The notes beneath the pieces were generated by a model. That model had not been told where the DNA came from. It worked only from the letters and a program-made list of their open reading frames with translations, and searched no databases. Below, in pieces: positions 43,234 to 57,654 of a stretch of DNA of 64,000 nt (its first letter is position 1; every line of letters starts with the position of its first letter). The stretch is from Acinetobacter sp. ANC 3813 (GTDB lineage Bacteria > Pseudomonadota > Gammaproteobacteria > Pseudomonadales > Moraxellaceae): positions 124,001 to 188,000 of the forward strand of contig NZ_NEGK01000001.1 of the NCBI RefSeq assembly GCF_002135435.1. Direction: 5' to 3'. The position numbers and the translations under genes are program-made.

Positions 43234-44766
43234 TTATTTTAGGCTTGGCAATAAACCGTGAATGATCAGGTCATTTAAGCAGCCGCTCGCCAGCAATTCA
43301 CTCGCCTGCTCAATATCTGGCGCGAAGAAGCGGTCTTCACTGTAATACGGCACTTGATCACGCAGCGCTTTGCGCGCACGCTCCAATTTAACCGAGCTTT
43401 TTAAGCCTTTACGGAAGTCTAAACCTTGGCATGCGCCCAGCCATTCAATCGCAATGATGCCGCGTACATTGTCCGCCATAGACCATAAGCGTTTGCCCGC
43501 ATTTGGCGCCATAGATACATGGTCTTCCTGATTGGCAGAAGTCGGCAGGCTGTCAACGCTTGCAGGATGTGCCAGTGCTTTATTGTCACTTGCCAATGCC
43601 GCTGCAGTCACCTGTGCAATCATAAAGTCTGAGTTCACACCGCCATTTTCCACCAAGAATGGCGGAAGCTGTGACATGTGGCGGTCCATCATCATAGAGA
43701 TACGGCGTTCAGACAGTGAACCCACTTCTGCAATCGCTAACGCTAAGTTGTCCGCAGCCATCGCTACAGGTTCCGCATGGAAGTTACCCCCTGAAATCAC
43801 ATCGCCTTCTTTGGCAAAAACCAATGGATTGTCAGAAACTGCATTAGATTCCACTTCTAACACTTCAGCCGCTTGACGGATTTGTGTTAAGCAAGCGCCC
43901 ATCACCTGCGGCTGACAGCGCAGTGAATATGGATCTTGTACTTTTTCACAGTCTTCATGCGAATGGCCGATTTCACTTTCTTCAGTCAATAGATCACGAT
44001 ATGCAGCGGCCACATCAATTTGACCGCGCTGACCGCGTACTTCATGTACACGCGCATCAAATGGTGAACGTGAACCAAGCATCGCTTCTACACTTAAACC
44101 GCCGCACACTGTGGCTGCCGCAAATAAATCTTCCGCTTCAAATAAACCGCGTAACGCATAGGCTGTAGATACTTGTGTGCCGTTGAGCAATGCCAAGCCT
44201 TCTTTGGCTGCCAATGCAACCGGTTCTAAACCTGCAATTTTTAATGCTTCAACCGCTGGCAGCCATTCGCCTTTATAACGCGCTTTGCTTTCACCCAGCA
44301 GCACCAATGACATGTGAGCAAGCGGCGCCAAGTCACCTGAAGCTCCCACAGAACCTTTTAAAGGAATATGCGGATAAACTTCAGCATTAATCAGTGCCAA
44401 AAGCGCTTCAATGACTTTTAAACGAATACCTGAAAAACCGCGCGCCAAACTGTTGGCTTTGAGCAGCATAATCAAACGCACCATTGAATCATCCAGTGCT
44501 TCACCTACACCTGCTGCATGTGACAATACCAATGAACGTTGAAGCTGTTCTAAATCTTCTTGCGCAATTTTGGTCGATGCCAATAAACCAAAACCTGTAT
44601 TGATGCCGTAAGCCGTTCGGCCTTCACGAATAATTTGCTCAACACAATCGACACTGGCTTGAATGGCTGGAATGGCCTTCTGATCTAGCTTAACTTTGAT
44701 CGGCTTTAAAAATGCTTCACGTAATTCTGCTAAATTAAGTTTGCCTGGTTGAATTAAAAGTTCCAT
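43234..44766 (-). CDS. hutH: Histidine ammonia-lyase
   Basis: Deaminates L-histidine to urocanate, the entry step of the hut pathway. The 510-residue protein has the Ala142-Ser143-Gly144 triad (in [13 protein letters not shown]) that self-cyclises into the MIO electrophile, with the tyrosine-containing loop [10 protein letters not shown] at 51-60. Length and motif positions match Pseudomonas HutH. It lies between hutU and hutT; an 86-base gap upstream contains an imperfect hairpin near CTGCTGA/TCAGCAG. Confidence 0.97.
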
Positions 44767-44852
44767 GTATACAGCCCTGTTTCCTATTTTTTATACGCTG
44801 CTGAATCATCAGGAGAGAGTTGAGATGAATCAGCAGTTGTCCTTTTTACGGC

Positions 44853-46526
44853 TTAGCCAGTAATCATCGGCAGATTTAAGCCTTGTTCTTTCGCACAGTC
44901 AATTGCAATATCATAACCAGCGTCTGCGTGGCGCATTACGCCTGTCGCAGGGTCATTGGTCAGTACTCTGGCAATACGTTCTGCGGCTTCATCTGTACCA
45001 TCACATACAATCACCACACCTGAGTGCTGTGAGAAGCCCATGCCTACGCCACCGCCATGATGCAACGACACCCAAGTTGCGCCGCCTGCTGTATTGAGCA
45101 AAGCATTCAGTAATGGCCAATCTGATACTGCATCTGATCCATCTTGCATCGATTCAGTTTCACGGTTTGGACTAGACACAGAACCTGAGTCTAAGTGGTC
45201 ACGGCCAATCACAACAGGTGCAGATAATTCGCCTGTACGTACCATTTCATTGAATGCCAGGCCAAGTTTTGCACGCAGGCCTAGACCTACCCAGCAAATA
45301 CGCGCTGGCAAACCTTGGAATGCAATTCGTTCACGCGCCATATCTAACCAATGATGCAAATGCTCATCATCTGGAATCAGCTCTTTCACTTTTGCATCAG
45401 TTTTATAGATGTCTTCTGGGTCACCAGAAAGTGCAGCCCAACGGAATGGACCAATACCGCGGCAGAACAACGGACGGATATAAGCTGGAACGAAGCCAGG
45501 GAAATCGAATGCGTTTTCTACCCCCTCTTCTTGCGCCATTTGACGGATGTTGTTGCCATAGTCAAAGGTTGGGACGCCCATTTTTTGGAAGTCCAGCATC
45601 GCTTGAACATGCACACCCATAGATTGCTTCGCGGCTTTTACCACTACATCTGGTTCAGTTTGCGCGCGTTCGCGGTATTCTTCCCATGTCCAGCCAATTG
45701 GCAGGTAACCATTTAATGGGTCATGCGCACTGGTTTGATCCGTCACCATATCTGGACGCACACCGCGGCGCACCAGCTCAGGCAAAATGTCTGCAGCATT
45801 GCCGTGCAGCGCAATTGAAATGGCTTTACCTTCTTTGGTATAGCGCTCAATACGCACCAAAGCGTTGTCTAAATCTGCAGCTTGCTCATCTACATAACGG
45901 GTACGTAAACGGAAATCGATGCTGGCTTGCTGGCATTCAATGTTCAAAGAACACGCGCCTGCCAAAGTTGCAGCCAATGGCTGAGCGCCGCCCATGCCGC
46001 CTAAACCAGCCGTTAATACCCAGCGACCCGTCAAGCTGCCGTTATAGTGCTGACGCCCTGCTTCTACAAAAGTTTCGTATGTGCCTTGCACAATCCCTTG
46101 GCTGCCAATATAGATCCAAGAACCTGCGGTCATTTGACCGTACATCGCCAAACCTTTTGCATCCATTTCATTAAAATGCTTCCAGTTTGCCCAATGCGGC
46201 ACTAAGTTCGAGTTGGCAATTAACACACGCGGTGCGTCTTTATGGGTTTTGAACACGCCTACTGGCTTGCCAGACTGAACCAGCAAAGTTTCGTGATCTT
46301 CTAAATCTTTTAAAGTTTCAACAATTTTGTCATAACATTCCCAGTTACGCGCTGCACGGCCAATCCCGCCATACACCACCAATTCTTTTGGGTTCTCTGC
46401 GACATCTGGGTCTAGGTTATTCATCAACATGCGCAGCGGCGCTTCTGTTAACCAGCTTTTTGCATTTAGCGTTGTACCGCGAGGGGCACGAATTTCTACA
46501 TCACGAAATTTTGTAGTTGTTGTCAC
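44853..46526 (-). CDS. hutU: Urocanate hydratase
   Basis: Converts urocanate to 4-imidazolone-5-propionate with tightly bound NAD. The 557-residue protein contains the diagnostic [15 protein letters not shown], the NAD-binding [16 protein letters not shown] and [15 protein letters not shown]. The start is GTG at 46526, supported by AAGGAG with 7-base spacing and by the family-length product; an ATG at 46550 would lie upstream of that ribosome-binding site. It is the first gene of the hutU-hutH-hutT-hutI-hutG block, and a HutC-type palindrome lies about 75 bases upstream. Confidence 0.95.
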
Positions 46527-46599
46527 CGTTGGACTCCTTCCATTCAACAAACTGTGTTTCTAATGACATCCCTTCAGCACTAATACAAACATGTGCTTA

Positions 46600-46620
46600 C
46601 TTGTATATACATGTATACAT
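46600..46620. promoter_or_regulatory. Probable HutC operator upstream of hutU
   Basis: CTTGTATATACATG (46600-46613) overlaps ATGTATACAT (46611-46620), two near-palindromic TGTATATACA-type elements. The first resembles the CTTGTATATACAAG dyad in front of hutC at 48246-48259. The site is about 75 bases before the hutU start. Confidence 0.7.
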
Positions 46621-46776
46621 ATTAAACATGAGTCAGAATCTTTGAAAAGACCCCAATTCAAAATAATCATTAAATATTTTTTAAAAATTTGATTTTATTA
46701 AAGTTAAATATTTTTATTTTTTTATAATTTGCCGCATTTTATGCCAAAATTTCGGCTAGAGATGTTCATCGAATAT

Positions 46777-47367
46777 TTAATAAAGCTCAATAAAACAGCA
46801 ATCTTTCTCTAAATTTTCGGGCAGTTGTATTGTTAATATTTGATCAGCATTGCTGATTTTGAGACAGTCCAAAGCCGCTAAATGATATTTTTGCTGTGCA
46901 ATTTGTATTACTGCAGCTTCTGCCATATTAAAAATAAACAGCGTAGGCGCCGAACTTAAAACGGTTTGCACCGCTTCCCCCTTTAGCCATTGCACCCGCG
47001 GCTGAACACGGTCCTTGCGGTAAATTAAATTCAGATCTCGAATCGGGCCATTCAATAGCCTGCAGAACACTGGCTGTTCGCCATCAAAAGCAAAAAGCGT
47101 TCTGGTCAATACATGCACTTCATTGGGCTCAGCCAGCATTTTTTGCTTGAGGCTTAGATGCATACCAGCACCTGACAATACCGAAATTATCCGCTGCTTA
47201 TCTTTAAAAAATGAAAATTCACTATCCGTATCTACATCTGCCATAGAGATGCGCCAGTCAAAATCATCTGCATCTTCTTGCGGGCTACGGGCAATTTCAT
47301 AAGTAAAGCCTAGGCCATTTTTCCACAGCATTTTTTGGTAATGCTGCAGTGTCAGATGCTGAATCAT
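46777..47367 (-). CDS. hutD: HutD family cupin protein
   Basis: A 196-residue cytosolic cupin encoded in hut operons. The N-terminus LQHYQKMLWKNGLGFTYEIA and DFDWRISMADVDTDSEFS are the family hallmarks; the family is proposed to tune pathway flux by binding formimino- or urocanate-type ligands. Its start codon overlaps the hutC stop (ATGA), so the two are translationally coupled. It is separated from hutU by about 250 bases containing the HutC-type site. Confidence 0.93.
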   Translation of the reverse strand: MIQHLTLQHYQKMLWKNGLGFTYEIARSPQEDADDFDWRISMADVDTDSEFSFFKDKQRIISVLSGAGMHLSLKQKMLAEPNEVHVLTRTLFAFDGEQPVFCRLLNGPIRDLNLIYRKDRVQPRVQWLKGEAVQTVLSSAPTLFIFNMAEAAVIQIAQQKYHLAALDCLKISNADQILTIQLPENLEKDCCFIELY

Positions 47368-48116
47368 TGCACGAACTTTCCTTCCAGATAGTAACGGCTG
47401 CCTGGATAGGTTAAACGCGCGCTGGAAATGAGATGCTTATTGGACCATGTACGGCGGCGGATGAGCAGACAAGGCTCCTGCTTGGTAATTTTCAGCCATT
47501 TGCATTCTTGTGCATTGGCCAAGACAGCTTCCACAATATGCTCCCCTTCACTGACGGGCGCTTGTGCCATCAAATAGGCATTAGGCGTAATTTGAGTAAA
47601 ATCCTGTTTTAAATAATTTGGAATTAAAGCCGCATTGACCAAACGGTCTTCAACTTGTACAGGCACATCATTTTCATAATGAATAATGATGGAATGAAAT
47701 AACGGCTGGCCTTCTTGCGTTTGCATAAACAAAGCTTGCTGTACATCCGCTTTAATTTTTTCCAGTTTCAAGACTTCTGCACGGTGAATATGATTACGCG
47801 CCACAATTTCATCGGCAATATTATTAATTTGAAATAGGGCTGAATGTCCTTGCCCTTCTGCAACGAATGAACCGACACCTTGCACACGAACCAGCATTTT
47901 ATCTGCTGTGAGTTCACGCAATGCCCGATTAACCGTCATGCGGCTGCAGCCCAGCAATTTGACTAATTCGCTTTCCGATGGAATTTTGTCATTAACTTTC
48001 CATTCTCCGCTGTAAATTTTGCTTTGAATATACTGTTTCACTTGCGCATATAGCGGCGAAGGTGCTTCTAAGCCTATGGATGTTTTATTTTCTTCTGTCG
48101 ATGAAGTGAATGGCAT
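47364..48116 (-). CDS. hutC: HutC, GntR-family repressor of histidine utilisation
   Basis: A 250-residue repressor with an N-terminal GntR winged helix (about 40-90; ESELVKLLGCSRMTVNRALRE) and a C-terminal UTRA ligand domain (ALFMQTQEGQPLFHSIIIHY, RRRTWSNKHLISSARLTYPG). In pseudomonads and enterobacteria urocanate is the inducer. The palindrome at 48246-48259, about 130 bases upstream, and one before hutU are the likely operators, so the repressor controls both transcripts and itself. Confidence 0.95.
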   Translation of the reverse strand: MPFTSSTEENKTSIGLEAPSPLYAQVKQYIQSKIYSGEWKVNDKIPSESELVKLLGCSRMTVNRALRELTADKMLVRVQGVGSFVAEGQGHSALFQINNIADEIVARNHIHRAEVLKLEKIKADVQQALFMQTQEGQPLFHSIIIHYENDVPVQVEDRLVNAALIPNYLKQDFTQITPNAYLMAQAPVSEGEHIVEAVLANAQECKWLKITKQEPCLLIRRRTWSNKHLISSARLTYPGSRYYLEGKFVQ

Positions 48117-48380: not shown

Positions 48381-48489
48381 TCGTAATTGAATTACATTTT
48401 TATTGAATTGCTTAATCGCTTATGTTAAAAAATAAACAATTGCGCTGATCGTAATTAAATTACGAATAATTTAAATCGTAATTTCATTT
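48381..48489. promoter_or_regulatory. Three TCGTAATT-type sites in front of the porin gene
   Basis: TCGTAATTGAATTAC (48381-48395), the perfect dyad TCGTAATTAAATTACGA (48449-48465) and a half-site TCGTAATTTCATTT (48476-48489) lie about 70-180 bases before the porin start. The second shares the 18-base string GCTGATCGTAATTNAATT with the MFS/SDR promoter. The IclR regulator of the cluster is the natural candidate to bind them. Confidence 0.6.
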
Positions 48490-48560
48490 GGATACACCCT
48501 GTATCTCAGTTCTAGGAATGAACTGATTAACAAGGATTTGTTTTTTAAACTGGATTTTTC

Positions 48561-49895
48561 ATGAAAGCATCAGTCAAATGTTTACTGGTGATGGGTACAC
48601 TTGTGCCTTTTTCACCTGCTGCTTGGGCCGACGTCATCTTTAAAGAAGACAAGCTGACCGTCACCAATAAAAACTTTTATTTTTACCGCGACTTTCGCAA
48701 TGGCGAATACAACCCATCAGGCGCCAACAAATTTGTGCCCATAGACGAAAAAGAAGGCTACCGCAGCGAATGGGCGCATGGTCTGATTTTGAATTACGAC
48801 TCGGGCTTTACGGACGGCGCAGTACAATTTGGCGTCAATGCCTATGGCCTATTCGGTTTTGAACTGTACAGTGACCCATTTAAAACGGGCACCAGCAATC
48901 TGCAGATTGATCATGAAGGCAATGCCAAAAGCGCCTTTGGAGAAGTGGGTGCAAGCCTGAAAGTTAAATATAAAGATACTGTTTTGACCTACGGCAACCA
49001 GTTTCCAAATGTTCCCGTGCTATGGGTGAATACGGCCCGTTTATTGCCAAGCACCGCTACAGGACTAAGCCTGCAGGATAAAAGTTTTGAACATCTCACA
49101 TTAAATGCTGGCTATTTTTACAGCATGAATCCTGTAGATTCGACCGAAGATTTGAATTATTTCACGACTGATTATAGTGTGGGCATTCAAGGCGAGAGTG
49201 TTAAATATCTTGGCGGCACATACAAGTTTCCAGAAGGCAGCGCTACTGCTTATGTATCAGAGCTAGAAGATGTATGGATTCAAACTTATGCAGGTGCAGA
49301 TTATCTGCACAAGATTAATGAGCAGCAAAGCCTGAAATTAAACTTCAATACTTACAATAACCAAGACACAGGCAAAAAAAATGGCGGTGATATCAGCACC
49401 ACGATTGCATCAGCCATGCTGGGCTATAGCTTGAATAATCACAAAATCAGCGTTGCTTATCAGCAAGTTTTTGGTGATGAGCCAGCAGACTGGACAGGTT
49501 TTGCTACACAAGGGCCAGGCATTGCCATTGCCAATGCTGTTCAGTTTGCAACTTTCTCGGAAGCGAATGAAAAGTCTGCGCAAATCCGCTATGACTTAGA
49601 TTTTTCACCTTACGGCATACCGGGTTTAAGCTTTATGGGCCGATATCTATATGGCTGGGATATGGATAACCAAGACAGCACCAATGCCTTTTATACCAAG
49701 CGCCATGTCTATGATCCGTCTGTAGACAATAAGCATTGGGAACGTGATTTACAGTTGGGCTATACCGTGCAAAAAGGCAAAGCTAAAGGCCTAAATGTGC
49801 TGCTGCGCCAAGCGACACACCGTTCAACGCAAGGTTACCGCTATAATGATATTGATGAACTGCGTGTAATTCTGGAATATCCGCTGAACTTTTAA
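48561..49895 (+). CDS. OprD-family outer membrane porin
   Basis: A 444-residue outer-membrane channel with a cleavable signal peptide (MKASVKCLLVMGTLVPFSPA, cleaved near AWADV). The mature sequence has alternating strand patterns, aromatic girdles and the OprD/OpdK features KNFYFYRDFRNGEYN near the N-terminus and NVLLRQATHRSTQGYRYNDI plus DELRVILEYPLNF at the C-terminal aromatic end. Such porins pass amino acids or aromatic and alicyclic acids. Its promoter carries the same operator-like element as the nearby catabolic genes, so it likely serves that cluster rather than hut. It ends with a terminator. Confidence 0.92.
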   Translation: MKASVKCLLVMGTLVPFSPAAWADVIFKEDKLTVTNKNFYFYRDFRNGEYNPSGANKFVPIDEKEGYRSEWAHGLILNYDSGFTDGAVQFGVNAYGLFGFELYSDPFKTGTSNLQIDHEGNAKSAFGEVGASLKVKYKDTVLTYGNQFPNVPVLWVNTARLLPSTATGLSLQDKSFEHLTLNAGYFYSMNPVDSTEDLNYFTTDYSVGIQGESVKYLGGTYKFPEGSATAYVSELEDVWIQTYAGADYLHKINEQQSLKLNFNTYNNQDTGKKNGGDISTTIASAMLGYSLNNHKISVAYQQVFGDEPADWTGFATQGPGIAIANAVQFATFSEANEKSAQIRYDLDFSPYGIPGLSFMGRYLYGWDMDNQDSTNAFYTKRHVYDPSVDNKHWERDLQLGYTVQKGKAKGLNVLLRQATHRSTQGYRYNDIDELRVILEYPLNF

Positions 49896-49917
49896 TTCAT
49901 CTTTGCTGAATGATTAA

Positions 49918-49942
49918 AGAGCAGGCTTCGGCCTGTTTTTTT
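49918..49942 (+). terminator. Terminator after the porin gene
   Basis: CAGGC (49922-49926) pairs with GCCTG (49931-49935) around TTCG, followed by seven T residues. Confidence 0.85.
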
Positions 49943-50392
49943 ATGTGCTTCAAAGACTTAATATTCAATCGAAAACACACCAGTGCCAAACCGTTAACCC
50001 CTGCAAAACTTCTTAAATCACAAATCTTCTGCATAGCAATTAGTATATACATACGCCTCCTAACCTCACTAACAAAAATATCGCTTAGGAGATGAACATA
50101 CTCACTATAAACACATATCACCACATCATTTACACGGCATGTAAGCCTGTTTAAGCAGTATTTTAGCCATAGCAATCATAGCTAATAAAATTAGGCATAC
50201 AGTCTTTGAATATCGTCATTACAGAGCAAAAGAAAGCCTCATGTCAAACAGACTACCTTGAACAAAAAAATATAAATATCAATAAATAACATAGCGATCA
50301 ACACCCTAATTTTACCGTGATCTTTTAAAGCTGAAATTTGCATGCAAATAACTGAATACTGATCGCCATTCGTTAATCGCTCCATTTACAAA
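49943..50392. other. Intergenic region, no gene recognised
   Basis: Between the porin terminator and the MFS terminator there are 450 AT-rich bases with short frames only. It contains a TAGTATATACATAC segment at about 50041-50054 that resembles half of the HutC-type site; no gene lies in the right place for it, so I give it no weight. Confidence 0.5.
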
Positions 50393-50423
50393 TGAAAAAG
50401 CCAGCATCACAGGACGCTGGCTC
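50393..50423 (-). terminator. Terminator after the MFS transporter gene
   Basis: AGCCAGC (50399-50405) pairs with GCTGGCT (50416-50422); on the minus strand a T-run follows. Confidence 0.85.
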
Positions 50424-50443
50424 TTATTAAAAATTGATTTAAA

Positions 50444-51820
50444 TCAATGATGGAATACTGCAGATGCAGATTCTTCTTTCGGCGCTTGATAGCCTTTCGG
50501 CTTGCGGACAAATAGAATGAAAAAGCTTGCAATCGCTGCAGGCACAATAAAGATAAAGAAGATATTGCTGACATCGGTATTAGAAGCCAATAAATACCCG
50601 CCCAAAACTGGCGCCATAATCGAACCAAAACGGCCAATGCCTAAGCCCCAGCCAATCCCCGTTGCCCGCGCATAGTCAGGATAGAAACTGCTGGTAAACG
50701 AGTTCATGATCAGGTTGCCGCCAATGATGCAGAAACCCGCTGCCAGCACGCCGACCACTAATAATGTCGGATTGGTGTTTTGAAAACCAATAAATAGGGT
50801 CGCAATTGCAGCGCCGACAAACATGGTGAACAAAATAGGCGATTTGTTTTGAACTTTGTCTGCAACATAAGAAATCAATAAGGCACCAATAACACCTGAC
50901 AGCAGAAATAAAGATGTCATCACATTGGCAACATTAATGCTCAAACCCGACTGTTTCAGCAGCACTGGCAGCCAGCTCAGGTAGAAATAAGTCAACATCA
51001 TCATAGACATATAAGTACCCCATATGAAGATGGTCGGACGCGCCCAGCCATTACGGAATAAATTCAATACAGGGAATCTGCTTTCACCCGATGCAACAGC
51101 CAAATCTTTTGGCAAATGGTTAAAGCTTTCCGGCACATTCCAGCCTGGCATAAAGTCCTTGGTCATTGCACGGAAACGAGTATACGGCGCAGCATCTGAC
51201 AGCAAATTATTTACTGCTTCAGGCAAGAATCTATAAATAAATGGAAGCATGACAATGGGAATAATCCCGCCAATCATTAACACCACCTTCCAGCCAAATG
51301 AGTCCACTAAAGCCGCAGAAACCAAGCCGCTCAGCATACCGCCTAATGAATACCCTGCCGCTGCAACCGTCACCATCAAAGTACGGTAGCGTGTAGGCGA
51401 ATAGTCCGACATCAGCGCCAAGGCATTCGGCATTGCAGCGCCCATGCCTAAGCCACACAAGAAGCGCACGATCATTAAAGAGGTAATGTCATAAGTGAAA
51501 ATCATGCCGATGGTGAGTAATGAATAGGTCAATACACACGCCATCAAGACATTACGGCTGCCAAAGCGGTCACCCAAAGGTGAGATCAGCATAGCGCCAA
51601 GGGTTAAGCCTAAAATATTTGCAGTAAATACGGGGGCAAAAGTTGCGGCAGGCAGTGACCACTGCTCCGAAAGAATAGGCACCATATAGCTGATGGCTTG
51701 AGCATCGTAACCATCGGTAATCAATACAATCAAAATGATGGCGAGCGCCCACCACGTTCTTTTCGAGACTGGGTTCTTATCCAAGGCTTCACGATAAGCC
51801 AGTGTTTGCGAATTATTCAT
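50444..51820 (-). CDS. MFS transporter, aromatic acid:H+ symporter (AAHS) type
   Basis: A 458-residue inner-membrane importer with 12 transmembrane helices. AAHS signatures are visible: the helix-1 motif ITDGYDAQAISYMVP (residues about 35-49), the loop motif SPLGDRFGSRNVL with DR in the MFS A-motif position, and the GMGAAMPNALALMSDY block. The family imports aromatic or related cyclic carboxylates with protons (PcaK, BenK, MhpT). It is divergent from the SDR genes across 173 bases and shares their operator-like element. A central loop of about 50 residues (near NLLSDAAPYTRF) is normal for the family. Confidence 0.9.
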   Translation of the reverse strand: MNNSQTLAYREALDKNPVSKRTWWALAIILIVLITDGYDAQAISYMVPILSEQWSLPAATFAPVFTANILGLTLGAMLISPLGDRFGSRNVLMACVLTYSLLTIGMIFTYDITSLMIVRFLCGLGMGAAMPNALALMSDYSPTRYRTLMVTVAAAGYSLGGMLSGLVSAALVDSFGWKVVLMIGGIIPIVMLPFIYRFLPEAVNNLLSDAAPYTRFRAMTKDFMPGWNVPESFNHLPKDLAVASGESRFPVLNLFRNGWARPTIFIWGTYMSMMMLTYFYLSWLPVLLKQSGLSINVANVMTSLFLLSGVIGALLISYVADKVQNKSPILFTMFVGAAIATLFIGFQNTNPTLLVVGVLAAGFCIIGGNLIMNSFTSSFYPDYARATGIGWGLGIGRFGSIMAPVLGGYLLASNTDVSNIFFIFIVPAAIASFFILFVRKPKGYQAPKEESASAVFHH

Positions 51821-51880
51821 AAAAATCCTTTCTACATTTAATCCATGTATAAATGCGTCGTCTGTGATTGCATCTATTAC

Positions 51881-51899
51881 GCTGATCGTAATTCAATTC
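51881..51899. promoter_or_regulatory. Operator-like element in the MFS/SDR divergent promoter
   Basis: GCTGATCGTAATTCAATTC differs at one position from the matching 18 bases at 48444-48461 in the porin promoter. It lies between the divergent MFS (start 51820) and SDR (start 51994) genes, so one binding event could control both. Confidence 0.6.
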
Positions 51900-51993
51900 T
51901 ATTTTTCTTGCAATAGCCAAAAAAAGTGATTAAGGTAAAAAAAGACAGCACAGCAGCTGTTGTCTTTTTAGCCGAAATAAAAGGGACATTTTC

Positions 51994-52752
51994 ATGACAC
52001 AACGAACAGTATTGATTACTGGTGCCGGTCAAGGGATTGGCGCTGGCCTCGCAAAAATATTGGCGAACGCTGGCTACAAAATTATTGCGACGGACATCAA
52101 TCAGCAAAATTGTGAAAATTTATTGCGTGAACTAACGGGAACAGGCCATCTCGCTTACGGCATTGATGTTTCAAACGAACAGCAGGTGCAAAAAATATTT
52201 GCAGATGCTGAAGCAAAAGCTGGCGCGATTGACTGCCTTGTCTGCGCAGCCGGTATTCTAATTTTACATGATGGCCAACGCAAACTGATTGTGGATACAG
52301 ATTTATCTGAATGGGAACTTACTCATGCCATCAATACACGCGGCACTTTCTTGTGTACTCGTGAATTTGTCCGCACACGCATTCAAAAACCTGTGCCACA
52401 TGGCCGTGTCGTAACTTTTTCTTCCTGTGCTGCTCAGCTTGGCGGTTACCGTTCAAGCTCGGCGTACATTTCAAGTAAAGCCGCAGTATTGGGCTATACC
52501 AAAGCATTGGCGCGTGAAGTTGCAGAACATCAAATCACAGTCAATGGCATTGCGCCTGGCTTGATTGACACAGCCATGCTGCGCCTTTCTATGAAAGATG
52601 GTCAGGAACAAGCCGCAGCGGCCAATATTCCCTTACAGCGCTTAGGGCAAGTCGAAGACATTGCCGCAGCCATTCAATTTTTAATTTCAGAACAAGCCGC
52701 TTACATCACAGGTTCAATGATTGATGTAAATGGCGGATACCGCATGCAATAA
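51994..52752 (+). CDS. SDR family dehydrogenase 1
   Basis: A 252-residue short-chain dehydrogenase with the NAD-binding GAGQGIG motif (10-16), a downstream CAAG in place of the usual NNAG (84-87), the catalytic Ser near 144 and the Tyr158-x3-Lys162 motif (YISSK). Asp34 after the second strand favours NAD over NADP. It is the first gene of a plus-strand catabolic operon; a second SDR gene follows 25 bases downstream. The likely substrate is a ring alcohol of the pathway compound, not determined. Its Cys-containing motif is a minor deviation. Confidence 0.9.
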   Translation: MTQRTVLITGAGQGIGAGLAKILANAGYKIIATDINQQNCENLLRELTGTGHLAYGIDVSNEQQVQKIFADAEAKAGAIDCLVCAAGILILHDGQRKLIVDTDLSEWELTHAINTRGTFLCTREFVRTRIQKPVPHGRVVTFSSCAAQLGGYRSSSAYISSKAAVLGYTKALAREVAEHQITVNGIAPGLIDTAMLRLSMKDGQEQAAAANIPLQRLGQVEDIAAAIQFLISEQAAYITGSMIDVNGGYRMQ

Positions 52753-52777
52753 ACATCTAAGGATAGATAGGTTTTAT

Positions 52778-53518
52778 ATGGATACAAATGTAGAAAAGAA
52801 ATACGCATTGGTGACTGGCGGCGCCAGCGGCATGGGCTTGGCTTGTGTAAAACGTTTATCTCAAGACGGTTTTAGCGTGTTCTTTTTAGACCGCAATGCA
52901 GAACAAGTTGAGGCCGTGACGCAAGATCTGAATGCTCAAGGCTTTAACGTTAAAGGCTTTGTCGTCGATCTGACCGATGAGCCTTCACTGGAACAACTTA
53001 TAGATGAATTGCCAAGCTTATCTGCCCTAGTCAATAACGCAGGTATTTTTGATGAGCGTTTATTTGATGAAGCATCATCTGCAGATTTCCGCCGCATGTT
53101 TGAAGTGAACACCATTGCCGTACATAACTTGACGCAATTGGCTGTGCGCAAAATGCCAAATAACTCGCGCGTAGTTATCATTGCTTCACGCGCCTATTTA
53201 GGTGCAAAAAACCATATCCATTACGTTTCATCTAAATCTGCCGTGGTTGGCTACACCCGCGCTGCAGCCATGGAACTTGCACCGCGTGAAATCATGGTCA
53301 ATGCCATTGCACCCGGTTTAATTGAAACACCCATTCTTAAATCGCTGACCCCAGAGCGCCGCAAAGCGCAGGAAGCGCTGCAGCCTACAGGCAAAGCTGG
53401 CATGCCTGAAGATATTGCCCATGCAGTGTCATTTTTCAGTAGCGCCAAGACCTGCTTTATTACTGGGCAAGTGCTGTTTGTCGATGGCGGTAAATCACTG
53501 GGCGGCAGCTACGCTTAA
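52778..53518 (+). CDS. SDR family dehydrogenase 2
   Basis: A 246-residue classical SDR with TGGASGMG (13-20), NNAG (86-89), Ser137 in IIASRAY and the Tyr149-x3-Lys153 motif (YVSSK). The acidic residue after the second strand (LDRN) favours NAD. The ATG at 52778 is chosen because an AGG lies 6 bases upstream and the frame upstream overlaps the preceding gene. It follows SDR 1 by 25 bases and is followed by a strong terminator, so these two form a unit. Confidence 0.9.
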   Translation: MDTNVEKKYALVTGGASGMGLACVKRLSQDGFSVFFLDRNAEQVEAVTQDLNAQGFNVKGFVVDLTDEPSLEQLIDELPSLSALVNNAGIFDERLFDEASSADFRRMFEVNTIAVHNLTQLAVRKMPNNSRVVIIASRAYLGAKNHIHYVSSKSAVVGYTRAAAMELAPREIMVNAIAPGLIETPILKSLTPERRKAQEALQPTGKAGMPEDIAHAVSFFSSAKTCFITGQVLFVDGGKSLGGSYA

Positions 53519-53547
53519 AACAGCCAAAGTTTAACCTTTACTCTTTT

Positions 53548-53588
53548 GGCAATATGAATCTCCTTGTCTTTGTCATATTGCCTTTTTT
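53548..53588 (+). terminator. Terminator after SDR 2, inside the catabolic cluster
   Basis: GGCAATATGA at 53548-53557 pairs perfectly with TCATATTGCC at 53573-53582 around a 15-base loop and is followed by TTTTTT. It separates the two-SDR unit from the third SDR gene. Confidence 0.88.
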
Positions 53589-53609
53589 ATTCTCTACAAA
53601 GGACTGGAT

Positions 53610-54383
53610 ATGACTCAATCCCATACCGCCTTGATTACAGGCGGCGGCCAAGGACTTGGCCGTGCAACGGCACTCGAAATGGCAGCAAACGGCATAAATG
53701 TACTCATTACCGATTTGAATGAAGTTGCCTTAAAAGAAACGGTCAGCTTGGCGTCAGACGTCAGCAAAATTCACTATATCGTTCAGGATGTCACCGCAGA
53801 AAATGCACCTCAGCAAGCTGTGCAGGCTGCTATTGAGCATTTTGGCGGTTTAGACTGGCTGATAAATAACGCAGGCATCGGCAAATCAAAAAGCCTGATG
53901 GACACCAGCGATGCGGATTGGGACCGCTACAGCGACCTGAACCTGCGCAGTGTCTTCCGCATGTCAAAAGCGGCCATTCCCCATATGCAGGCTGGCCGCG
54001 GCTCAATCATTAACCTTGGTTCTATTTTCGGCTTATTGGGCAATCCGGGTACCGCCCCTTATGCCGCAACCAAAGCCGCTGTCATGGGATTAACCAAACA
54101 AATGGCAACGGATTTAGGCCCGCAAGGCATTCGCGTCAATGCGATTGCGCCGGGTTTAATCAAAACACCATTGACCGCGGAACGTATTGATCACGACCGC
54201 AATTTCCAAAAACTGATGGTCGAAACCACCCCCTTTCAGCGTGTAGGCCGCCCTGAAGATATTGCCAACGCGATTTATTTCCTCTGCTCTGACAAAGCCA
54301 GCTTTATTAATGGCCACACACTGGTGGTCGATGGCGGCTGGAGCACCTCAAATTATGTTTATTCCGCTTTAAACGAGATTTAA
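53610..54383 (+). CDS. SDR family dehydrogenase 3
   Basis: A 257-residue classical SDR (3-oxoacyl-ACP reductase-like) with TGGGQGLG (10-17), NNAG (86-89), Ser138 in INLGSIF and the Tyr151-x3-Lys155 motif (YAATK). The C-terminal TLVVDGGWST is typical. It begins 21 bases after the terminator and leads the second plus-strand unit, with a NIPSNAP gene 3 bases later. Its role, a ring-alcohol or ketone oxidoreductase of the same pathway, is inferred from context. Confidence 0.9.
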   Translation: MTQSHTALITGGGQGLGRATALEMAANGINVLITDLNEVALKETVSLASDVSKIHYIVQDVTAENAPQQAVQAAIEHFGGLDWLINNAGIGKSKSLMDTSDADWDRYSDLNLRSVFRMSKAAIPHMQAGRGSIINLGSIFGLLGNPGTAPYAATKAAVMGLTKQMATDLGPQGIRVNAIAPGLIKTPLTAERIDHDRNFQKLMVETTPFQRVGRPEDIANAIYFLCSDKASFINGHTLVVDGGWSTSNYVYSALNEI

Positions 54384-54386
54384 AAA

Positions 54387-55094
54387 ATGCAATACGAACT
54401 AAGATTTTACTATATCGAAAAAGGCCGCATGGCTGACATTGAAGCGCGTATGCGTGATGGTTTGCCGCCGCTTTTAAATAAACACGGCATCAATGTGGTT
54501 GGGCGCTGGAGTGTTTTAGCTGGCCCGCAATGCTCTATGTTCATTTATTTAATGGCATGGAAAGACAATACTGAACGTGATACCAATTGGGGCGGTTTTT
54601 ACAATGACCCAGAATGGTGGGCATTGCGCGCAGAAACCAACGCAGGCACAGAGCTGGTTGAATATTATGATATTCATTTGCTTTCTCCTGCCATCTCTTG
54701 GCTCAACCATGCAGAAAAAAATGGCTTGCCGGCATTAGGCGCCCTGCATGAACTAATCGTGCAGCCGATTGCCAATGGTCAGCCGAAAGCAGCGCAAGAA
54801 TATTTGGAAAATACGGCTTTCCCTACGCTGATTAAGCATGGCGGCGACATTCTAGGCAGTTTTGTTCCGCAAAGCGGCATGAATATGCCGGGCATAGTCA
54901 GCATTATCAGCTGGCCTAGTTTTGAAGCGCGCCTTGCGGGCTGGAAAGCCTATTGGGCAGATGAGGCTATTCAAACAGCGTTAAAACAGCAACGTGAACA
55001 GCTGGGGAAATACTTATTGGGTCGTTCAGATATCTACCTGCTCGAACCTGCATCATTTGCGCCCATTCATCCAAGCTTAGGACGGATTAAATGA
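54387..55094 (+). CDS. Two-domain NIPSNAP family protein
   Basis: A 235-residue protein formed by two NIPSNAP-type dimeric alpha-beta barrel repeats: residues about 1-98 (YELRFYYIEKGRMADIEARM, FIYLMAWKDNTERD) and about 118-225 (ALHELIVQPIANGQPKAAQE, SIISWPSFEARLAGWKAYW). No signal peptide is present. Members are found in catabolic gene clusters and may act as small-molecule carriers or in ring chemistry, but the biochemical role is not established. It starts 3 bases after SDR 3 and overlaps the flavoprotein gene by 4 bases. Confidence 0.85.
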   Translation: MQYELRFYYIEKGRMADIEARMRDGLPPLLNKHGINVVGRWSVLAGPQCSMFIYLMAWKDNTERDTNWGGFYNDPEWWALRAETNAGTELVEYYDIHLLSPAISWLNHAEKNGLPALGALHELIVQPIANGQPKAAQEYLENTAFPTLIKHGGDILGSFVPQSGMNMPGIVSIISWPSFEARLAGWKAYWADEAIQTALKQQREQLGKYLLGRSDIYLLEPASFAPIHPSLGRIK

Positions 55095-56770
55095 ATAAAG
55101 ACGTCGATTTACTGGTGGTTGGCAGCGGCGCAGCAGGCATGTGCGCTGCCATTGTTGCTAAACTTTCGGGCTTAAATGTCCTGCTGATTGAAAAAACCAG
55201 CAAAATCGGCGGCACCACCGCCTTATCAGGCGGTGGAACGTGGATTCCGCTTAATCATCAAGGCATTGCTCTAGGCGTACAAGATACATTGGAGCAAGCC
55301 GAGCTGTATTTAGATACCGTGATTGGAATGGATGCCCCTAAAGCGCTACGCAGCAACTTTTTAAAATTTGGCCCAGAAATGCTGAAGTTCATGGAGCAGC
55401 ACACTGAAGTTAAATTTTCTGGCCGCAAATATTCACCAGACTATTTGCCGGAAAAATGCGGTGCAGGCACTGGCGGCCGCGCCTTAGATCCGCTGGAATT
55501 TGACGGGCGCTTATTAGGTCAAAATTTTGAAAACCTAAAAAGCCCTTTGCCTGAATTTTTAGTCTTTGACGGCATGATGGTCAATAAAATGGATATTGAC
55601 CTGCTGCTGCGAGCGAAAACCAGCGCAGACGGTTTTTTCCATGCGGCAAAAATGGTCACGCGTTTTGCCCTAGACCGTTTGCGCGGTTACTCACGCGGCA
55701 CACGCTTAGTATTGGGCAATGCATTGGCTGGCCGCCTGTATAAAAGCATGCTTGATTTAAACATTGAGATTCTGACTGATACAGCCATTCAAAGCCTTGA
55801 AAAAAATGCAGATGGACGTGTTGATGCGGCGTATTGCCAGCAGCAAGGCAAAGCACTGTCGATTACTGCAAAAAAAGGCATTGTCTTGGCAACTGGCGGT
55901 TTCCCCAATAACATTGAGATGCGTCAAAAGTATTTGCCTGCGCCGACAGGTCTCTGGTCTGCAGGCAATCCGCACAATACAGGTGACGGCATTAATGCCG
56001 GTTTGGGCATTGGCGCAAAAATGGGCAGCAATGTCAATAACGGATTTTATTCGCCTATTTCTCAGCGCAAGCGTAAAGACGGCACCACCGCAAATTTCCC
56101 ACATTTAATGCTAGATCGCTACAAACCCGGCATTATTATGCTCAATGCCGAGGGTAAACGTTTTGTCAATGAAGCCAATTCTTACCATGAATGCGGCGCA
56201 GCGCAATATCAATCGAATGCCAATCCGGGCTGGATTATGTGTGATGCCACAGCCATGAAAAAATATGGTTTAGGACTGGTTCGACCCAATCCAAGTGACA
56301 CAGAACTGAAAGGTTTTATGCAAGAAAACTATTTGATTTGCGCTAATAACATTGTGGAATTGGCACAGCAGATTCAGGTAAATGCCACCGTACTGGAAAA
56401 AACCATTCACAATTACAACCAAGATGCAGTTGCAGGCGCAGACCGTGAATTTGGCAAAGGCAGCAATATTTACAATACCTACTTGGGCGACCCAACCCAT
56501 GCGGGTAATCCATGCCTAGCACCCGTAGATCAAGCGCCTTATTATGCCATTCAGATATTCCCGGGAGATATTGGCACCTCTGCGGGTTTAGTTACCGATG
56601 AATTTGCCCGTGTATTAGATGAAAATCAGCAGATTATTACTGGGCTGTATGCTGCAGGCAATGATATGAATTCAATCATGGGCGGTCATTACCCTGGCCC
56701 AGGCATCACGCTAGGCCCTGGTCTCACTTTTGGCTATATTGCCGCCAAGCATGCGGCAGGCAAACTTTAG
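55091..56770 (+). CDS. 3-ketosteroid-dehydrogenase-like FAD-dependent oxidoreductase
   Basis: A 559-residue flavoprotein of the fumarate reductase/KstD family. The FAD-binding GSGAAG is at 11-16, with Glu34 after the second strand, and the GGTTALSGGGTWIP substrate-side loop follows at 40-53. The C-terminus has AAGNDMNSIMGGHYPGPG, then ITLGPGLTFGYIAAKHAAG, the pattern that carries the catalytic Tyr and Gly of 3-ketosteroid delta-1-dehydrogenases. It should desaturate a cyclic ketone next to its carbonyl. Whether the substrate is a steroid or a simpler alicyclic ketone cannot be read from sequence. It is the last gene of its operon, with a terminator after. Confidence 0.88.
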   Translation: MNKDVDLLVVGSGAAGMCAAIVAKLSGLNVLLIEKTSKIGGTTALSGGGTWIPLNHQGIALGVQDTLEQAELYLDTVIGMDAPKALRSNFLKFGPEMLKFMEQHTEVKFSGRKYSPDYLPEKCGAGTGGRALDPLEFDGRLLGQNFENLKSPLPEFLVFDGMMVNKMDIDLLLRAKTSADGFFHAAKMVTRFALDRLRGYSRGTRLVLGNALAGRLYKSMLDLNIEILTDTAIQSLEKNADGRVDAAYCQQQGKALSITAKKGIVLATGGFPNNIEMRQKYLPAPTGLWSAGNPHNTGDGINAGLGIGAKMGSNVNNGFYSPISQRKRKDGTTANFPHLMLDRYKPGIIMLNAEGKRFVNEANSYHECGAAQYQSNANPGWIMCDATAMKKYGLGLVRPNPSDTELKGFMQENYLICANNIVELAQQIQVNATVLEKTIHNYNQDAVAGADREFGKGSNIYNTYLGDPTHAGNPCLAPVDQAPYYAIQIFPGDIGTSAGLVTDEFARVLDENQQIITGLYAAGNDMNSIMGGHYPGPGITLGPGLTFGYIAAKHAAGKL

Positions 56771-56826
56771 TTCAGCTCCATTCAAAAATGTATTGATAAA
56801 ATAATTCTTCTTTCACAGCATGCAAT

Positions 56827-56860
56827 AAAAAAGGTGAATCTTTTCAGGCCCACCTTTTTT
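56827..56860. terminator. Bidirectional terminator between the flavoprotein gene and iclR-type gene
   Basis: AAAAAAGGTG pairs with CACCTTTTTT around a 14-base loop, with a T-run on either strand. Confidence 0.85.
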
Positions 56861-56880
56861 ATGCTGATGATTTTAAAAAA

Positions 56881-57654
56881 TCACATCGCATCGACATTGC
56901 AGCCCAGTTTATAACTGGCTTCCCGAGCAGTACGGAGCAATAGTTTTGCGGCATCACTGTCAAAATCAGCATTAAAGGTGTCCTGCATGCCAATCACCGT
57001 AATTACACCAACAATACGCTGATGAATATTAAAAATGGGAGCAGACATCGCATTGACACCCGTCATCACTTTTCCATGAATTTGGTTCATACCATGCTCA
57101 CGGATCTTTAAAATCTTTGCGCGGATTTTCCCAAGATTATCAATTCCATGTGTTTTCTTTAATTCATCTTCTGGAATATATGCACAGAAAACTTGACCTG
57201 TAGATGATTCCATTAATGGCAGTACAGAACCCACTTTGGTCACCATTGTAAATGCTTTGATGGCTTCTTCTAAGTGAATCACTGTCGGGCCTTGATTACC
57301 CCAAATGGCTAAGAAACAGGTTTCCTGTAAATCCAGACACAATTGATGCACAAAAGGTTTCGCAATTTTTACAACATCTAAACTGCCCAGTGCCGCGGCT
57401 GCCACATACAGTGCTGTCGGGCCGAGTTTATATTGGCTGGTTTCTGGATCCTGCTCTGCAAATCCGTTGGCCAGTAACGCCTGTAAATAGCGATGCAATT
57501 TACTTGCAGGAATATTCAAATGCTCGGAAAGACCGCTCAATGTTGTTGATGGCGCTAAATCTGCCAGCCCTTTTAAAATATCTGTACTCAGCTCTGCGGC
57601 TTGTACTTTTTGCTGACGTTTTAATGGCACTTCTTTGGTTATTTCATTCGCCAT
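56881..57654 (-). CDS. IclR family transcriptional regulator
   Basis: A 257-residue regulator with an N-terminal winged helix (about 25-85; TTLSGLSEHLNIPASKLHRYL) and a C-terminal effector domain (YVAAAALGSLDVVKIAKPFV, HLEEAIKAFTMVTKVGSVLP). Relatives such as PobR and PcaU activate or repress aromatic-acid catabolic genes on binding the substrate. The ATG at 57654 is used; a TTG at 57666 is less likely. It is convergent with the catabolic genes and is the only regulator in the cluster, so it is the best candidate to bind the TCGTAATT elements at 48381-48489 and 51881-51899. Confidence 0.9.
   Translation of the reverse strand: MANEITKEVPLKRQQKVQAAELSTDILKGLADLAPSTTLSGLSEHLNIPASKLHRYLQALLANGFAEQDPETSQYKLGPTALYVAAAALGSLDVVKIAKPFVHQLCLDLQETCFLAIWGNQGPTVIHLEEAIKAFTMVTKVGSVLPLMESSTGQVFCAYIPEDELKKTHGIDNLGKIRAKILKIREHGMNQIHGKVMTGVNAMSAPIFNIHQRIVGVITVIGMQDTFNADFDSDAAKLLLRTAREASYKLGCNVDAM

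Follow-up and report, generated by a model that had tools for sequence, protein, structure and literature searches.

A gene cluster of Acinetobacter sp. ANC 3813 that probably feeds an alicyclic acid into homogentisate catabolism

In a 64,000-nucleotide stretch of the Acinetobacter sp. ANC 3813 genome (assembly GCF_002135435.1, 3.86 Mb; positions C1:124001-188000, where C1 is contig NZ_NEGK01000001.1), hereafter called the window, we investigated a cluster of eight genes encoding an OprD-family porin, a major facilitator superfamily (MFS) importer, three short-chain dehydrogenases/reductases (SDR1, SDR2 and SDR3), a two-domain NIPSNAP protein, a flavoprotein related to 3-ketosteroid delta1-dehydrogenase (KstD) and an IclR-family regulator. 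We consider it likely that this cluster encodes a peripheral pathway for the import of a hydroxylated alicyclic acid (likely a di-oxygenated cyclohexaneacetic acid) and its oxidation to homogentisate. All eight genes are present with open frames, in the arrangement described by a first-pass annotation of the same DNA. The proposal made there, that an alicyclic acid is taken up, that SDRs oxidize its ring alcohols and that the flavoprotein desaturates the ring beside a ketone, is still the best reading of the families, motifs and conserved neighbors. Of its wider interpretation, this uptake and oxidation were supported, and the two pathways named as models, 4-oxocyclohexanecarboxylate aromatization and steroid breakdown, were not. 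The comparison of conserved neighbors that it had suggested, as a way to reveal a different pathway, led through neighbors, regulator and operator to homogentisate.

Recurrence of the cluster beside homogentisate genes

A scan of GTDB contigs gave 146 confirmed loci, of which 80 were kept; the 30 of these having both flavoprotein and SDR relatives of the window cluster are referred to as core loci (L020, L042 and L053 are ended by the contig on the promoter side; Roseomonas L036, a borderline case, was left out). The gene set is far from a chance assembly, because the whole cluster recurs in Acinetobacter pragensis (L009) at 89-95% identity and 30 of the 80 loci share an SDR/flavoprotein core. 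The flanks of the A. pragensis cluster, judged by the sizes of open reading frames only, differ from those in the window. A close flavoprotein orthologue (92%), which corresponds to that of A. pragensis, was found in only 1 of 174 other Acinetobacter genomes, the remaining matches being paralogues of 39-47% identity, and an order-wide NIPSNAP search of 390 sampled genomes returned the window's own genome only. In an 85-row flavoprotein tree (a quick tree with some long branches), the core label required 4 changes, compared with a shuffled mean of 27.

Outside Acinetobacter, the most similar cluster is that of Pseudomonas sp. RIT-PI-AD (L010; SDRs 66-71%, NIPSNAP 66% and flavoprotein 61% identical), which directly adjoins maiA, an IclR gene, hmgA and fahA. 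In another genome of that genus (G625, locus L177), a like set stands next to fahA-hmgA-IclR-maiA in inverted order. On the Chelatococcus plasmid pCO-6, annotated maiA and hmgA genes adjoin a cluster with the order GST-GntR-SDR-TRAP-SDR-SDR-flavoprotein (GST, small glutathione transferase; TRAP, tripartite ATP-independent periplasmic importer). Four Bosea loci contain hmgA and three of these fahA and maiA as well; two Bosea-type loci, L047 and L052, contain none of them, and Bosea sp. Leaf344 (L019) has two hmgA genes, one by the cluster and the second elsewhere. The fahA gene in a Stappia locus (L055) gives weaker support, as two other FAA-hydrolase-like genes, judged by translations, lie in the same locus. 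Apart from pCO-6 and G625, HmgA or FahA was encoded within 6 of the 30 core loci versus 0 of the 50 others, and linkage to hmgA, fahA or maiA spans four lineages and three importer types.

Co-occurrence across genomes was consistent with this linkage: HmgA exceeded its cut-off in 28 of 29 core genomes (30 less L022) versus 17 of 34 paralogue genomes (18 at E 1e-3), the latter taken from 50 (Fisher p = 4e-5, an optimistic value because the core genomes, including several Bosea, are related and relatedness is uncorrected). The only core genome lacking hmgA is that of A. pragensis.

The importers of the core loci vary, comprising MFS proteins of the aromatic-acid/H+ symport (AAHS) type in L009 and L010, another MFS protein in L026 and L029, and elsewhere TRAP importers (Halomonas, Rhodobacterales and others) or Liv-type ATP-binding cassette (ABC) importers (Rhizobiales, Bosea); OprD relatives adjoin the cluster in L009, L010 and L177. 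Because known TRAP, ABC and MFS importers of such kinds transport carboxylates or ring acids, the substrate would most likely be an acid. A small GST gene is found in 26 of the 30 core loci, and an FCD-type GntR regulator gene in most (e.g. L013:11719-12321 and 2082-2807); L009 and L010 have NIPSNAP and no small GST, and none was seen in the contig-ended L020 and L053.

Some loci stand at the edge of this set. In Roseomonas rosea (L036:8323-11600), relatives of NIPSNAP (36%), SDR3 (50%) and the flavoprotein (45%) lie together, those of NIPSNAP and SDR3 on the opposite strand, and may be a further form of the module; NIPSNAP relatives are also present in the non-core loci L023 and L027. Four plasmid-borne NIPSNAP relatives are 30-40% identical, and the two examined have other contexts. 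L020, from a Nocardioides marinus assembly, is an SDR-flavoprotein core in an actinomycete that falls inside a Proteobacteria clade, which may reflect inter-phylum transfer or contamination.

An HmgR-like regulator and its candidate operator

The IclR gene (56881-57654, minus strand) is convergent to the flavoprotein gene and probably starts at the ATG at 57654, the position at which the homologous gene begins. Its product is 52% identical to the IclR protein of L010, which we took to be HmgR because the best match of that protein adjoins hmgA in all seven other genomes compared (six named Pseudomonas and one 'gamma proteobacterium L18'), within ~230 bp in six of them and at 2.6 kb in one. Similarly, the best HmgR match in A. 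pragensis is the IclR protein of the cluster (50%), the next IclR protein reaching 32%. In a 26-row tree, HmgRs were the nearest non-Acinetobacter rows to the window protein, with the branching inside the group left unresolved. By sequence kinship, the window IclR protein appears to be an HmgR orthologue. According to passages of PMC5343134, homogentisate is the anti-repressor of Pseudomonas putida HmgR.

Table 1 of PMC8222616 lists ATTACGTTATTCGTAAT as the HmgR motif of P. putida. Because spacers vary among Pseudomonas hmgR/hmgA promoters, we searched for the half-sites alone, as ATTACG-N5-CGTAAT. An exact pair (ATTACG-CTGAT-CGTAAT) was found once in the window, at 51876-51892 in the divergent promoter between the MFS and SDR1 genes, and in 0 of 100 window shuffles; it is a putative operator of the HmgR regulon. 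The whole genome has only two exact pairs. The second precedes hppD (TIGR01263, 387.1 bits; cut-off 277) by ~250 bp, and genes for an AroP-like permease and an aromatic aminotransferase come after hppD. Sites with one half-site mismatch lie upstream of OprD (48439-48455), among further ATTAC/GTAAT half-sites and matched in A. pragensis (L009:3315), and between an IclR gene and fahA (C1:203650), ahead of fahA-maiA; because sites of this class are not enriched, these two count by position only. When the full motif was used, the only other match in the window as close as 51876-51892 (three mismatches; 0.20 expected, two found) was 48459-48475, again in front of OprD.

Across loci L009-L106 (1.77 Mb) there were four exact sites. 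A. pragensis has one, between the MFS and SDR1 genes, and L010 has one there too, as well as one ahead of maiA and one separating hmgR from hmgA. All five other clusters with an HmgR-like gene (L009, L010, L177, L026 and L029) have a site with zero to two mismatches before the first SDR gene, whereas none was seen in the first-SDR promoter of the 28 core loci without such a gene (L103 and L106 included; three contig-ended). The random chance of this split, calculated by hand with the three contig-ended loci omitted and relatedness uncorrected, is 1 in 142,506. A GntR-like ATGTATACAT site was also considered, but of 33 core loci only L010 and L177 have an exact copy, and it does not generalize.

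An HmgR-like regulator could have been recruited with a changed ligand to a cluster that degrades an unrelated ring acid, since an identity of 52% allows a new ligand and alpha-proteobacterial clusters mostly have a GntR gene instead. We regard this as improbable: the site in front of the cluster is common to hppD and, with one mismatch, fahA of the same genome, and clusters of Bosea and Chelatococcus are physically linked to hmgA too, in loci that showed no HmgR-like gene.

Cluster enzymes and the proposed route

The OprD gene (48561-49895, plus strand; PF03573, 390.7 bits) opens the cluster and is followed by the MFS gene (50444-51820, minus strand). The first-pass annotation had called the MFS protein an AAHS importer; TIGR00895 (aromatic acid/H+ symport) is indeed its best NCBIfam match, but the score of 332.7 bits is under the cut-off of 418.55, and we call it AAHS-like. 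On the plus strand follow SDR1 (51994-52752), which is kept in the core cluster, SDR2 (52730-53518), which probably begins at the internal ATG near 52778, and SDR3 (53610-54383). In agreement with the active-site motifs noted in the first-pass annotation, TGxxxGxG and YxxxK are intact in each of the three SDRs. In addition, each SDR has an acidic residue after strand 2 (ATDIN, FLDRN and ITDLN). An acidic residue at this position is a rule-of-thumb mark of NAD use, and its presence in all three suggests that they use NAD and work in the oxidative direction. The best solved chain for SDR3 is dihydroanticapsin 7-dehydrogenase, which leads the next (FabG-type reductases) by 4 bits only.

The NIPSNAP gene (54387-55094, plus strand; PF07978, two matched stretches) overlaps the flavoprotein gene (55091-56770, plus strand; PF00890) by 4 bases. 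A structural model of the NIPSNAP protein (from nine sequences; predicted local distance difference test score, pLDDT, 86) has a two-domain alpha+beta barrel, which matches chains of a putative monooxygenase, the PenE monooxygenase, an anthrone oxidase-like protein and a coproheme decarboxylase at ~10% identity; the predicted fold is too general for these matches to fix a reaction.

The flavoprotein shares its fold family with KstD (4c3x, 8jbz and 7p18); 7p18, its closest solved chain, is a 3-oxosteroid 1-dehydrogenase. Residues Y118, Y365, Y534 and G538 align with the Tyr/Tyr/Tyr/Gly catalytic set of 3-ketosteroid delta1-dehydrogenase, a set retained in 33/33 core and 51/51 other flavoprotein relatives. 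Unlike KstD, it is accompanied by acid importers and SDRs, and no steroid-degradation gene was recognized among the annotated conserved neighbors (no genome-wide search for such genes was made). The cluster also resembles the Chc system of 4-oxocyclohexanecarboxylate aromatization (ChcB1, ChcB2, ChcC1 and ChcC2), in which ring-alcohol SDRs and KstD-like desaturases convert an alicyclic acid into an aromatic one. However, the Chc equivalog cut-offs were far from reached, by SDR3 (ChcB2, 192.7 versus 350 bits; ChcB1, 188.1 versus 400), by SDR2 (ChcB2, 141.6 versus 350) or by the flavoprotein (ChcC2, 427 versus 900; ChcC1, 295.9 versus 1000). Moreover, the cluster has one desaturase gene compared with two in the Chc model, and its neighbors and regulator are those of homogentisate rather than 4-hydroxybenzoate. 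Catabolism of the Chc or the steroid type, although in keeping with the enzyme families, is therefore very improbable.

Other KstD-like genes were seen in different settings: tandem copies with IclR and MFS genes in other Acinetobacter (L065, L068 and L077); a cluster with EthD, YciI, Rieske and hydrolase genes on a Sphingomonas paeninsulae plasmid (L102, 9724-15713), which adjoins maiA and a VOC-family gene; and a further gene in the window genome itself (C15:124169-125827), ~10-15 kb from what we take, from the translations, to be a homoprotocatechuate-type gene set.

On the reading that homogentisate is the product, the acid would enter through OprD and the MFS protein. Two SDRs would convert ring hydroxyls into ketones, and the third would act on a stereoisomer or on an additional hydroxyl; the flavoprotein would remove two hydrogens next to a ketone. 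The resulting enedione would tautomerize to homogentisate, aided by NIPSNAP, in place of which GST may act in other lineages. The hydrogen count would agree: going from 2,5-dihydroxycyclohexaneacetate (C8H14O4) to homogentisate (C8H8O4) takes three two-hydrogen oxidations, of which the SDRs would carry out two and the FAD enzyme one. Homogentisate would then relieve the repression exerted by the HmgR-like protein, and the maiA and fahA products, encoded ~22 kb off with a similar site ahead, would consume it. The identity of the substrate, the order of reactions and the step of NIPSNAP (elsewhere GST) are inferred.

The same hydrogen count would apply to a 1,4-dihydroxycyclohexaneacetic acid (rengynic-acid or quinol type), with the flavoprotein desaturating both sides of a 4-ketone and NIPSNAP or GST rearranging the quinolacetate to homogentisate. 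Both quinolacetate and hawkinsin, its glutathione adduct, are known to arise as by-products of 4-hydroxyphenylpyruvate dioxygenase (HPPD), and the GST gene in 26 of 30 core loci would fit such chemistry. This route needs two desaturations plus a rearrangement with side-chain migration, for which we know of no enzyme outside HPPD, and we think it a poor prospect, although no result here separates a 1,4- from a 2,5-dioxygenated substrate.

A different product, 4-hydroxyphenylacetate formed from 4-hydroxy- or 4-oxocyclohexaneacetate, would leave the finish to the host, through homogentisate (by a 1-hydroxylase and hmgA) or, in Acinetobacter, through homoprotocatechuate. It would explain the use of the cluster by a genus without hmgA, and the genome has the presumed homoprotocatechuate-type set on C15; the distant likeness of the flavoprotein to ChcC2 is also in its favor. 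Nevertheless, two desaturations would be required of the one flavoprotein present and no hydroxylase was recognized in the clusters looked at. In addition, the exact sites tie the cluster to hppD, whereas the C15 set has only a one-mismatch site inside a neighboring reading frame. Overall, we consider 4-hydroxyphenylacetate an unlikely product and retain homogentisate.

Homogentisate genes of the host and implications

The first-pass annotation had pointed out that neither a ring-cleavage nor a CoA-ligase gene lies in the cluster; we found none either, and feeding of the product into another pathway remains the best reading. About 22 kb beyond the cluster, fahA (TIGR01266, 604.6 bits), maiA (TIGR01262, 290.2 bits) and a gene for a 191-residue VOC protein are followed at a short distance by the gene for a 3-oxoacid CoA-transferase subunit, and the MaiA, FahA and HPPD equivalogs are all over cut-off in the window genome. 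A site with up to two mismatches precedes fahA in 20 of 21 Acinetobacter loci fetched (background, 36 of 1000 random window stretches). The genus has a homogentisate regulon, into which the cluster appears to be plugged.

The VOC gene (C1:205833-206405; L168:17833-18405) is found in 84 of 175 Acinetobacter genomes at E 1e-40, some copies carrying stop codons, and adjoins maiA and fahA in 30/30 loci shown. Its product is a candidate for the ring-cleavage enzyme, the sole one seen beside maiA and fahA. A role as a plain replacement of HmgA is weakened by the presence of a 61-71% identical relative near hmgA in 4 of 26 fetched hmgA stretches (L139, L143, L151 and L211 among L138-L156 and L209-L215). 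A close relative in the PDB, 9u42, is named only Glyoxalase. The biofilm-responsive gene table of Acinetobacter baumannii in PMC3758355 lists the corresponding genes as fumarylacetoacetase, maleylacetoacetate isomerase, a glyoxalase/dioxygenase and 4-hydroxyphenylpyruvate dioxygenase.

Several observations weigh against homogentisate as the product. Foremost, hmgA (TIGR01015) had no match in the window's own genome or in any of 175 Acinetobacter genomes searched, so the known pathway is incomplete and the final ring-cleavage step in Acinetobacter is unexplained by known genes. Of the 28 HmgA-positive core genomes, 23 have hmgA outside the fetched locus of the cluster, and stretches around hmgA from 18 of those 23 contained no core gene. 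Flavoprotein relatives occur on 73 plasmid records, and the best three of the 40 listed, which we examined, were a core cluster with hmgA, a core cluster without maiA and hmgA (Methylobacterium, L103) and another cluster. With respect to the operator, the site at 51876-51892 differs from the full 17-base motif at three positions, all in the spacer; sites with at most one mismatch are not enriched genome-wide (15 versus 39 for a reversed control pattern); and the operator is missing from clusters that use TRAP or ABC importers, most of which have a GntR gene instead. Finally, the fahA site is also present in 18 of 19 loci from Acinetobacter species without the cluster, and may be bound by another IclR protein.

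An 'hmgA' reference for Acinetobacter is given in PMC11945678; at 633 bases, it is maiA-sized rather than coding for a 430-residue HmgA, and it follows a stretch called hmgB.

The surroundings of the cluster gave no clear sign of recent acquisition as foreign DNA, a possibility we considered from GC content (cluster, 0.449; left side, 0.445; right side, 0.396; whole window, 0.427). Directly upstream, at 43234-48116, lie what we take from the translations to be histidine-utilization genes (hutH-, hutU-, HutD- and HutC-like).

Compared with the P. putida hmgRABC/HmgR regulon, the cluster has in common an HmgR-type IclR gene, exact operator half-sites and a site that also occurs before hppD and, with one mismatch, before fahA-maiA. 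The spacer of the window operator differs from that of the P. putida site, as spacers do among Pseudomonas hmgR/hmgA promoters. Unlike hmgRABC, the cluster would be an extra feeder outside hmgABC, in a genus without hmgA. The entries into homogentisate named in the sections of PMC11945678 and PMC3053370 consulted are all aromatic (tyrosine, phenylalanine and hydroxyphenylacetates), and neither an alicyclic route to homogentisate nor this gene set was found in the literature searched (titles, abstract starts and part of PMC2842291). The enzyme families and the homogentisate hub are known, but a link between them was not found there, and alicyclic-acid aromatization directed to homogentisate is likely undescribed.

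Tentatively, and with more doubt than confidence, we extend the proposal to an undescribed module of Pseudomonadota and one Nocardioides assembly that, with exchangeable MFS, TRAP or ABC importers, would turn ring-reduced homogentisate analogues into homogentisate. NIPSNAP or GST would be its finishing isomerase, and in Acinetobacter it would be wired into an HmgA-free homogentisate regulon with the VOC-fold protein as the missing ring-cleavage enzyme. The analysis exposes a gap in that the searched Acinetobacter genomes lack hmgA although the window genome has hppD, maiA and fahA. If homogentisate is the product, a simple color test would be at hand, as blocking its cleavage makes homogentisate darken to pyomelanin; a product would be named for a widespread SDR/flavoprotein module, and an alicyclic entry would be added to the pathways that lead into this central hub.

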